Shown here piece by piece: positions 488 to 6,400 of a DNA stretch of 64,000 bases. The DNA lies in contig CAJNOJ010000228.1 in the NCBI GenBank assembly GCA_905250025.1, positions 104,795 to 168,794 of the forward strand. Reading direction: 5' to 3'. Within the stretch, counting starts at the first letter, position 1. Each line of letters opens with the position of its first letter. A program made the position numbers and the translations under genes. Below the pieces are notes generated by a model. It was not told the origin of the DNA, did no database searches, and saw only the letters and a program-made list of their open reading frames with translations. The DNA comes from Adineta ricciae. Its lineage: Eukaryota > Rotifera > Eurotatoria > Adinetida > Adinetidae.

Positions 488-3400
488 TTAAACGTTCTTA
501 GCAGGCGTTGATGTATCTTGCTTTGTTTTCGCTTCCATTTCTTCTTTCTTTTCCTTTTCTTCAATCATGTGTTCCTTACGAACAAGATCGATGATTTCTT
601 TCAAATGTTTCTTCGAAATCTGCACTTTCTCATTTTCAATGATTTCGAGTGCCTAATGAGAAAACAAGATTTTCCTTCGAATAGATTTACATTGGAATAA
701 AATTACTTTTAAGATTTCATCAACTTCAATAAAACCGTCTTTGTTATGATCGAATTGATTGATTATATCCCACACTTGAGGATCGAGGCTTTGGTTGGAT
801 ACTTTTTGAATTTGTCGAATGGTATTGACCAATTCTTGTGTTGAAACGAGTATTTCTCTGCAGAATAACGAAAATTGGCGTCGAAAAATAAATTATCAAA
901 TCAACGAACTTTTTCTCGGTTAGAAAATCTTTATGCTCTTGGATTTGATCCGTTTTCATACCGATCTCTTCCTTTAATTTATCTTCTTTCGACTAAAATA
1001 CATTTTGTTTTTTCTTCAAAATGAAAGTCGATGATTCGAATACACAACAAACCTTGATATCCTTCTTCAATGAATCTTGTTTCTTGTCCAAGGTGTTGAC
1101 AATTTGATCAAGATCGCCGACGAGTTTATCAATACGTTTGGAAAGTGCCTTCGCAGAACGTGTTTCGCTCAAATGTTTCAAGTGTTTACTAGCTGCCAAT
1201 GTTTCGAATTCTTTCACATCTTCCTTATACTCTTTGACATCATCCTAGAAATACAAATCATATCTTCTGTTTGACGAAAAGCCAGACTGACTTACTTTGA
1301 GTTCTTTGATTTCTTCCACAGTTGCGTGAACTTCCTGTGCTTTTTGGCTAACTAGTTGTTCAAGAGCAGTTTCGAATTGTCCGACATCAATATGTTGATC
1401 GTCTTTCTTCTTCGCATCGGCAAGTACGGGTGCTTTGTCGACAAGAATCTCACTCTTACGAATATCCGCCGGTATAGTTGGTGTTACGACTTGTTCAGCA
1501 AGTTTCTTCTTCTTGAGCTCTTCTTCCGATACTTTCTTATCTTTGTCTTTCTCTTCCTTTTCTTTTCGAATAGCTTCATCTTCACGTTTAATTGCCTCGA
1601 TACGTTGGGTGTTATCGACACGTTCACCACTCACTTCAGCGATCTTCACAGCCGTCACACTATCGATAGCTTTAGGTAACGATTGAATAGCTGCTTTGAG
1701 TATGTCTTCTTGAGGAATATTTTCCGGTAAGTAAAGCGCACGTGATACAAGTAAAATTGTCGACGGAATACGTTTATTCAGGTGAAGATCAAGCCATTGT
1801 TGGAGTTGCGAACGTAAACGTTCAACACTTACACCATACGAACGCATACCGCGATCACGACATGCAGCTTGTAGCTCTTCGACATCAAGATTTTCAATTC
1901 CTTCATCATGAATTAATTTATCATCAGCTTCGAGGTTACGTAGTTTCATATGAAGAGTAAAACGTAAGTAATAATCGGGACCGATAGTCGATATGCCAAG
2001 AAGTTTANCCAACGTCTTATTCACTTTCAATTGATCTCACGGAATACTATATGATCTTTCGATTCTCTTAAACATAGTCCTATCAGATTGTACTACTACA
2101 CGAATCAGAAAATCATCAACATTTTCTAAGTTGCCTCTTTCATCATAATAGAAGAAATCAATGCATTTCGCATTTCTGGCATATTTAAACTGTTTACACT
2201 ATATTTCAAAATAAATTTTACAAAAGACGAAATGTAATTTAAAGGTGCCGCTAATTACATAATTCTGTAGAGAATCAGAATTCTGGATGAATTCTGCTGT
2301 GAAAAACATAATTCTGCTTAGATTTTTGATATTCATGTTACAATCGACATGTGTAGATACATAATTCTGTAGAGAATCCAGAATTCTGCTGTGAAAAACA
2401 TAATTCTGCTTAGATTTTTGATATTCGTGTTACAATCGACATGTGTAGACACATAATTCTGTAGAGAATCCAGAATTCTGAATGAATTCTGCTTTGAAAA
2501 ACATAATTCTGCTTAGATTTTTGATATTCGTATTACAATCGACATGTGTAGATACATAATTCTGTAGAGAATCCAGAATTCTGAATGAATTCTGCTTTGA
2601 AAAACATAATTCTGCTTAGATTTTTGATATTCGTATTACAATCGACATGTGTAGATACATAATTCTGTAGAGAATCCAGAATTCTTGATGAATTCTGCTG
2701 TGAAAAACATAATTCTGCTTAGATTTTTGATATTCATACTACAATCGACACATGTAGTTGCATAATTCTGTAGAGAATCCAAAATTCTGGATGAATTCTG
2801 CTGTGAAAAACAATTCTGCTTAGATCTTTTATATTCATACTACAGTCGACACGCGTAGATGCACAATTCTGATGTAAAGAAGTAGTTTTCTGAAGAATTT
2901 TGTTTTTCTTATACTTGTTAAATAAGAAACTAATAATTATACATTTTAGCAAAATTCTAGAATTCTGCTATTGTAGAACTTTGCCACTGCTGGCCTTTTC
3001 GGCATCATTTATTGCAGTTAAATGAAATATTGAAAACTATGAGTGCGATATTTCTGCTTTTTTATTTAGTATCCCTCGTTTTTATAAAAAAAAGTCGTTT
3101 CTCATGTAAAACTTCATTTCTATAAATTGCTTCGACAGCTTCATGGAATGCATGTTTCTTATACTATGGACAGCGATGTATCGACGGTTATGAACCCATT
3201 TATCTATATCAGCTAATGAATAAGACATAGTCTTTGACGTTGGATTTGTTTGCCTCAAGAAGTAGGATTTCAACTACATCATCATTTAAAGGAAACATCA
3301 ACTCTCATTTTTGTGCTGATCGATAAGCAATTTAGTTTCGAAATACATATTTTAGTTGAGACCGAAGCCATGTTAATTGAAATGCTGAGTTAAGTAAATC

Positions 3401-6400
3401 GTATCATTACTGTCAATATATAATCACATAGATATACTTTAGAAATGAAATTTACGCGAAGCTTATCATATTACTCGCATCAATTCCTGTGCCGCCTGCC
3501 AGGGATGTCATTGACATCTACAGGGTCCCGGAGCTGCATGCAGCATTGGGAGGCGCCCCTGGGCTGCTGGTAGCCACACCGTCTTGTTGTCAGGCTAGCC
3601 CCCTATCAACGGGACATAAAACTTTACTGGCTAACGAAAAAGATCATGAACAGTGCATCAACGCACGTAAAACAACGTTCTTCGGTGGATGGAATGTACG
3701 ATCGTGTTTTTGAATGGCGAAGAAACAACTCATTATCAAACAACTGCAAAGACACCGCATACAAGTGGCTGCTCTGAGCGAAACGGCCATCTACGACACA
3801 GGTGTATCAACAGTGGGTGAATACACAATGATTCATTCAGGTCTTACCAGCGAGAACAGGACAAGATCCGCACATGGAGTGGCCATCTGTCTTGGTAAAC
3901 AAGCAACGATGGCGTGGGAAAACATCGGTGCCTTTTGGAAAGCAGTCAACGAACGAATCGTCATGGTGCGACTACAGGGAACACCCGTAAATGTCACGAT
4001 CATCGCCGTATATTCTCCAGTCAATCCCAACGATAACAAAACCGCTGCTACAGCATCAGACAAATTCTATACCGATCTACAGCAGACGTTAAGTACGGTC
4101 CCATCAAAAGACCTCTTATTAATCATGGGTGACTTCAACGCGAGAATTGGAAAACAACAGAACTACACCAGTAATAATGTGGTTGGCCCACATACAACTG
4201 ATCACATCAATGAAAATGGGCAACGACTGGTGGACTTGTGCAGCAAACGACCTCATCATTACCAATACATTCTTCCAGCACAAACCCATACATCAAACCA
4301 CCTGGATGCATCCTGGAAACAAGAAATGGCACACACTCGATTATACTCTCGTCAATCGTAAGTTCAGATCGAGCGTTGAGGCTGTGCGTGTGCATAGGGC
4401 GGCTGCAGGTACGATAGGAACGGATCATCACCTACTCGTGACCAAGCTCAAACTCCACCTGAAAAGCCGCAGAAAACGACAAAAACAACGATGTGGTCGT
4501 CTGGATATAAAAAAGCTGAAAAATGGTGCCTGTATCGAAGCTTTCCAGGCCGAACTCATGAATCGTCCATCAACAACGGACCCAAATAACGTGACAATCA
4601 ATGCTAAATACTCGGAATTCGCAACGCATATTAACAACATTGGCCAAAACATCTTCAAATTGGACGACAATAACCGAAAACAGAAGGAATGGCTGACCGA
4701 TGAAATATTGGAAATCGTCGACATGAAAGCCAAAGCCTTCCTTGAATGGCAAAATCATCGTGGTACCAATCAAGAGCGTCGATACCGAAGCAAATACCGC
4801 CTCCTGCGCAACAAGGCAAAAAAGCGCATTGAAGCACGTCAGATCGAATATTGGGACGAAACCAGCATCGAGATTGAATCAGCAATCAAGCAGCATGATC
4901 CAGCAACGGCCTATGCGATGACACGGCGAATAAAAGGAGGTCGAACCAATATCGAAAACCTGCCTATCCTCGATCTGCAAGGAAAAAGCATTCTGAACTC
5001 GCAGGAACGACTACAGCGTTGGAAAGATCACTTCAGCGCTCTGCTAAATATACCATCCCACATCGATCAGTCCATTTTGGATCAAATACCTATACCAGTG
5101 ATCTCCTATGAGTCAATGCACGAGAGGGACAACCAATTTCTCAATATAGCTGCTCAATCGATGTCGCCGATTTTACCGGCATCTATCCCATATTGTAGAG
5201 GGTATTTTATTAGGCATAGTTCCAAATTTTTAGCCCTAAAGCTTGAACTTTGACTGAGATACACGAAATTTACTGAAAGCACTAAAAATGGAATTTTATC
5301 AATTTTTGAATTTTTTCAGCGGTCGCCCACATGCAGTATTTTCGTAATATCTCTTCAGAACAATGTGATAGAGACCTGAAATTTTTACTGTACATACATT
5401 TCGACATGGAGAACACNAGTAATAATCGGGACCGATAGTCGATATGCCAAGAAGTTTACATAAGCCAACTAGTTGTGGACGGTCGAGGTTATCCAATGTT
5501 AATTTATTTTCGAATAAAGAAGAAAATTTCATAATATCTTCTGTTGATGGTTGAACACCGGTAGAACGAATCTAAATCGAACAAGAACGTCTAGATTGTT
5601 TGCTTCAGTAAGTCTTCTTCTACCTTTTGCATGAATTCAGCGAATTGTTTCGTTAACGTGTCGTCCGAACGTTTCTTTGTCGATTTCAAAGCTGTTTCTT
5701 CCAAAGTATCTTGAAGAAATTTTGCTACCTCTAATTTGACTTTCAATTGTTTCTTCAACTTTTCTTGCTAGAAGAAAAGCCGGCATTGAAGTTTTTCCTT
5801 ATCGAAAGTCGTTCTTTACCTCTTTATTCGCCTCTTTGAATGTACTTGGCAACATATTTGGAAAAAGTTTCAAAAAGATTGGCAATGTAAATTCCATGAA
5901 TGGAACGATGATAAAGACAGAAAATGGAACCAATCGAAATAAATCAGCAGAAGTGCGAGTAAACTAAACGAAATCAGGTTCTTTCTTATCTTTTCCATGA
6001 TTGACAAGTACCTGTCTTCGTTCTCGTCGTGTTAACGTGTGACCGTTTAGAACTTGTCTTAAGAGTCGAAAGGCGATCTTCGTTTCGATGAATAATAGTT
6101 TAAACCCATTATAATAATGTTTTAATTCGTGAACAATTCGTTCCCAAAGCGATTTACGTTTCGGGACGACTTGATCGCCTGCAGTTATTGTGGTCGTTGC
6201 AACCGTTGGACTCGCAGTGGTTGACGGAGCGGACGCTGCTAGCTGGGCTTTGTCCTTCTCGGCTTTCTCTTTTAACAAATCGACGGTTTTTTCTATTTTC
6301 GATTTATCATCATATAGGATCGATGATGAATGAAAGGAACGAATATGCATCGAAGATAGCAAGAGCAAACGATTGGGATCAATCGGTGTAATATGTCTCG

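Follow-up and report, generated by a model that had tools for sequence, protein, structure and literature searches.

A repeat block that splits LETM1 in an Adineta ricciae genome assembly is very probably a scaffolding artifact

RESULTS

LETM1 is interrupted between two identical 41-bp sequences

We analyzed a stretch of 64,000 nucleotides (hereafter the window; GC content, 36.6%) from scaffold C228 of the Adineta ricciae assembly GCA_905250025.1, near the start of which LETM1, an ordinary mitochondrial gene, is interrupted by a block of repetitive DNA. Table 1 of PMC7943196 lists this assembly, of A. ricciae ARIC003, at 135.6 Mb, with an N50 of 283.8 kb, an L50 of 129, and a GC content of 35.5%. 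The features of the locus, with A, B, and C denoting the contigs to the left of, within, and to the right of the two gaps, are as follows.

1245 to 2007, minus strand: LETM1 coding sequence, end of contig A; open frame (PF07766, E = 8.6e-29 for 1245-2006)
1967 to 2007, unstranded: 41-bp direct repeat, copy 1; 100% identical to copy 2; last 41 bases of contig A
2008, unstranded: single N, scaffold joint A/B; one of two Ns in C228
2009 to 2992, unstranded: segment 1, hAT-like element missing its left end, with ~103-bp tandem units; 89.9% identical to C228:4865-5914
2993 to 3000, unstranded: GCCTTTTC, apparent 8-bp hAT target site; a related element in C938 lies at the same 8 bases in the opposite orientation
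2993 to 3491, unstranded: segment 2, fragment of an older host repeat, probably hAT; 95-97% identical to C938, C846, and C378 over the shared parts
3492 to 5110, plus strand: segment 3, 5' portion of a non-LTR retrotransposon with its endonuclease region; 96-97% identical to C541 and C261
5107 to 5416, unstranded: segment 4, left portion of another repeat that is truncated at 5416; start common to C145, C145b, C243a, and C243b
5417, unstranded: single N, scaffold joint B/C; one of two Ns in C228
5418 to 5458, unstranded: 41-bp direct repeat, copy 2; 100% identical to copy 1; start of contig C
5418 to 5571, minus strand: LETM1 coding sequence, same exon as 1245-2007 (PF07766, E = 3.4e-11 for 5422-5571); frame continuous when the flanks are joined

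An earlier, sequence-only reading of this DNA had claimed that identical 41-bp repeats bracket the block and that an N sits exactly at each block end, and both claims were borne out: comparison of the window with itself returned the two copies as an exact match, and the Ns just inside them are the only ones in the window and, indeed, in all 168,794 bases of the scaffold. The 3.4-kb block that it described is present, with limits that we refined to 2009-5416 (3,408 bp), while the offset from one repeat copy to the other is 3,451 bp. The remaining exact direct repeats of at least 25 bases in the whole window all begin within 2200-2900, the block's tandem array, and since no other such repeat lies outside that array, the 41-bp match that adjoins both Ns did not arise by chance. 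Far from the locus, comparison by 25-mers also found the window's sole exact inverted repeat (20 words), which is longer than 40 bases and extends from 58133 and 58434 onward.

Both copies of the 41-bp repeat are minus-strand coding sequence of LETM1, with matches to the Pfam domain LETM1_RBD (PF07766) on either side of the block. Once 2008-5417 and one 41-bp copy are left out, the exon forms a single open frame across the joint, and its homoeologue on C111 aligns ungapped through the joint (72% identity over 1,464 columns), so that the proposed restoration of a phase-perfect gene held. A search of 1,033 assembly contigs (130,461,839 bases in total) with 1500-1966 as the query returned the locus itself, C111 at 77%, and C90 at 66%, and found no near-identical second haplotype of LETM1 among them.

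Both ends of the block are cuts inside repeats

The block's first matches in the assembly stopped at its edges and gave it the apparent termini of a single mobile element. We rejected these termini because a BLAST match cannot pass the end of a cut query, and because the copies, when compared with each other, run on. On the left, where 2009-2992 matches C228:4865-5914 and 2009-2389 matches C935 at 92%, these two copies (n = 2) still resemble each other over the 282 bp that precede the block's first base. On the right, matches to 5107-5416 lie in C145 (89%), C145b (87%, to 5336), and two places in C243 (71%), and shorter parts of 5107-5416 match C1012 (98.5% over 268 bp) and C486 (73%). Beyond the block's last base, C145 and C1012 remain alike for 127 bp, where C1012 stops, and C145 and C243 for 166 bp; the likeness is shorter for C1012 and C243a (~40 bp) and for C486 with either C1012 or C145 (~26 bp), so that some right-end pairs are alike for just 26-40 bp. 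The two C243 places are alike much farther (94% over 3.3 kb) and may be one local duplication, and C145b is uninformative for this end, as an N terminates it at the position corresponding to 5336-5337 of the window. By these comparisons, both ends of the block are cuts inside repeats.

The block is a nest of repeat fragments

The right terminus of segment 1 lies at about 2989-2992: the window, C228, and C255 are alike to 2992 and then enter different DNA in each, and in C1009, C607, and C938, members of a related subfamily end at the position equivalent to 2992. The left end is truncated, at least 282 bp within the stretch common to C228 and C935. hAT elements make 8-bp target duplications, and GCCTTTTC, immediately to the right of the segment, is apparently what such a duplication would give; we call segment 1 hAT-like on account of this site. 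The resemblance to hAT transposons, which extends to the domains found beside the host repeat in C938 (below), is limited by the pieces in the window being cut, by the window holding no second GCCTTTTC copy to the left of segment 1, and by no transposase having been found in the window. A hAT domain in C935 was set aside as evidence of class, since it lies outside the shared stretch. The copy at C228:4583-5914 has no inverted ends and no 8-bp duplication around it, so 4583 is the limit of likeness between two copies and not a proven element end.

Two further observations concern this family. The tandem array of ~103-bp units occupies ~2280-2890 of the window, and similar sequence occurs in C228 (~5112-5828), C607, C938, and C1009. 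Moreover, the two related hAT-like elements in the block and in C938 have opposite orientations at one and the same 8-bp site of a hAT-like host repeat, and target preference is a possible explanation for this pair.

Copies of the repeat to which segment 2 belongs run beyond 3491 in C938, C846, and C378, with ~550 bp more on the right that are common to all three. To the left of the GCCTTTTC site, C938 holds ~780 bp more of the repeat (two places, 97%); the C846 and C378 copies begin later and give no view of this part. A BED zinc finger (PF02892, E = 4.7e-6) lies in the C938 part left of the site, and a hAT dimerization domain (PF05699, E = 3.9e-10) lies farther left in the C938 stretch (L041), but beyond an N. 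Given these two domains, the host repeat is probably a hAT element.

Segment 3 starts at the same base in C261 as in the window and one base off in C541 and C419, and it holds two overlapping open stretches in different frames. Its endonuclease piece gave a weak match to PF14529 (E = 7.4e-4, under the Pfam cut-off) and, in a search of the PDB, a sensible match to exonuclease III (4.5e-4); the top PDB match, a designed spike construct (7.5e-7), was taken as chance. The segment is the 5' part of a non-LTR retrotransposon of the kind with an exonuclease/endonuclease domain, and its C541 relative continues into a reverse transcriptase (RVT_1, E = 4.9e-29); neither a reverse transcriptase nor the 3' end of the element is present in the window. 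Segment 4 interrupts segment 3, with a start at 5107 that recurs in four other places. Two 221-bp copies of it that are 100% identical lie ~14 kb apart at C145:195437-195657 and C145:209836-210056, the latter cut by a single N. A search of the block for structured RNA in Rfam gave one sub-threshold snoRNA match (E = 0.42).

Judging from these boundaries, the block is a nest, with segments 1 and 3 inside the repeat of segment 2 and segment 4 inside segment 3. On that order, its left neighbor would be expected to be more of segment 1 followed by the host repeat, and its right neighbors more of segment 4, of the retrotransposon, and of the host repeat, rather than LETM1. None of these continuations lies between LETM1 and the block, where each gap is one N.

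Single-N joints are common elsewhere in the assembly

Among 20 distinct gaps in the DNA that we fetched, a sample biased to the block's repeats and including the window's own two gaps, 17 are single Ns, so that joints marked in this way are common elsewhere; the others measure 17, 72, and 4,197 Ns, and stretches withheld from the analysis also read as N. Some single Ns lie inside or at the edge of the block's repeat families (C255, C261, and C145). Since a copy of segment 3 at C261:7659 and a copy of segment 1 at C255:16537 halt exactly at one, these segments break contigs elsewhere too. At C486:35763, a single N lies between two exact, unmerged copies of a 187-bp sequence, and the left side has 34 bases more. 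The flanks at C486:35763 diverge after the repeat, which could be another unmerged overlap or a branch.

An overlap between the outer contigs, as at LETM1, was found in one of five distinct triples of the form contig-gap-contig-gap-contig, namely, the LETM1 triple itself (another of the five has a 17-N gap). A fixed k-mer overlap as a general source of the 41 bp was rejected, given that four of the five triples have no outer overlap; 41 is also not a default k-mer of SPAdes. A telomere-type motif, sought in stretches L020 to L050, had one match, in L028. As for assembly software, in the methods of PMC7943196, SPAdes is given for single individuals, whereas Redundans, SSPACE, and GapCloser are given for two Rotaria species, with A. 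ricciae unnamed at the latter step; PMC5916493 describes a 2018 A. ricciae assembly made with Platanus, SSPACE, GapFiller, and further scaffolders.

DISCUSSION

We consider it very probable that the split of LETM1 is an assembly artifact, in which a repeat contig was placed between two overlapping LETM1 contigs. LETM1 would be intact at the locus, and a short-read assembler would have left one contig ending, and another beginning, within the same 41 bp, after which a scaffolder would have put the nested-repeat contig of 3,408 bp between A and C with one N per joint. Of this account, the sequence itself shows the 41-bp overlap, the two Ns, an exon that reads open once joined, and a block truncated at each end within repeats that extend beyond it. 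Short-read assemblers halt inside multi-copy repeats, and a 41-bp overlap of the outer contigs is too short for joining by a large k-mer. The sequence-only reading had offered the joining of two contigs with their 41-bp overlap unmerged as one explanation, and the unmerged overlap is supported by the cuts inside repeats, the commonness of single-N joints, and the unmerged 187-bp repeat in C486. The number of contigs is what we would revise, as there would be three, A, the repeat contig, and C, with A and C overlapping.

SSPACE represents gaps of zero or negative length by one n, and the locus resembles an SSPACE-type misjoin with an unmerged overlap in its single-N joints of one base each, its exact outer overlap, and the repeat contig between. 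It differs in that the LETM1 overlap spans an inserted third contig; the software step, like the lack of any haplotype with the block at LETM1, is something we infer. Several considerations count against an artifact. One triple of five with an outer overlap is too few to call the pattern systematic, and 41 is no SPAdes default k-mer. The left end was judged from two copies, and some pairs at the right end part within 26-40 bp. In addition, a scaffolder normally needs read pairs that link both flanks to the inserted contig, which would point to some repeat really near LETM1. The methods of PMC7943196 also leave the steps used for A. ricciae unnamed.

Alternatively, a transposon island may have inserted into the LETM1 exon of one haplotype with a 41-bp target duplication and then been badly assembled, such that the block is the island's middle and the outer parts were lost in the two N gaps. 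This would account for the flanks terminating precisely with the repeat copies, free of any foreign base, since, by our reasoning, a de Bruijn graph would overlap the flanking contigs by exactly the target duplication, and the single close LETM1 copy that we found means that a second haplotype could be collapsed. R9 elements offer a bdelloid precedent for long target duplications, as far as the title of a reference conveys; by that title they are specific to rDNA. Counting against such an insertion, the part of PMC2861651 that concerns Hebe, a bdelloid non-LTR element, gives target duplications of 7-12 bp for intact copies. The block is flanked by an exact direct repeat, as an inserted transposon would be, but an N separates it from each repeat copy, where an insert would directly adjoin its duplication, and relatives continue beyond both of its ends, where the termini of its own family would be expected. 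Neither block end being an element terminus, our results do not support the other option of the sequence-only reading, an insertion with an unusually long duplication, in the form in which it was drawn.

The identity of the candidate elements also argues against such an insertion. The outermost repeat looks like hAT, and an 8-bp duplication fits the site at 2993 rather than the 41-bp repeat; segment 3, which lies inside the block, did not make the 41-bp repeat as an outermost element. The missing outer parts would furthermore come to well over 1 kb, against two gaps of one base each. A badly assembled heterozygous island is therefore unlikely in our estimation, and we keep a small share of our confidence for it because of the one triple in five, the exact flank ends, and the scaffolders' need for linking reads. 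Quite unlikely, too, is its biological counterpart, a large nested-transposon island with a 41-bp duplication in a LETM1 exon of one haplotype of this asexual rotifer that is tolerated thanks to homologous and homoeologous copies.

A fixed insertion that disrupts LETM1 in the lineage, again with a 41-bp duplication, is the literal content of the scaffold, and yet it is very improbable: it shares the difficulties of block ends that are not termini, an outermost repeat that looks hAT-like, and outer parts missing at one-base gaps, and an open, LETM1-matching frame would not be expected to survive on both sides of an old disruption. Least credible of all is a rearrangement by break repair, in which a double-strand break in LETM1 took up part of a transposon island and its staggered ends gave the 41-bp duplication; this would allow arbitrary block ends in bdelloids, which repair many breaks, but leaves the scaffold's sole two Ns, at both joints, unexplained.

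There is no novel biology to claim at the LETM1 block. Gene prediction at this locus would report a broken or split LETM1, and transposon surveys would count an insertion into a gene with a long target duplication; such cases could be flagged by a simple filter for exact repeats that adjoin two single Ns from outside. Transposon load near bdelloid genes is an active question, and for it the artifact serves mainly as a warning.
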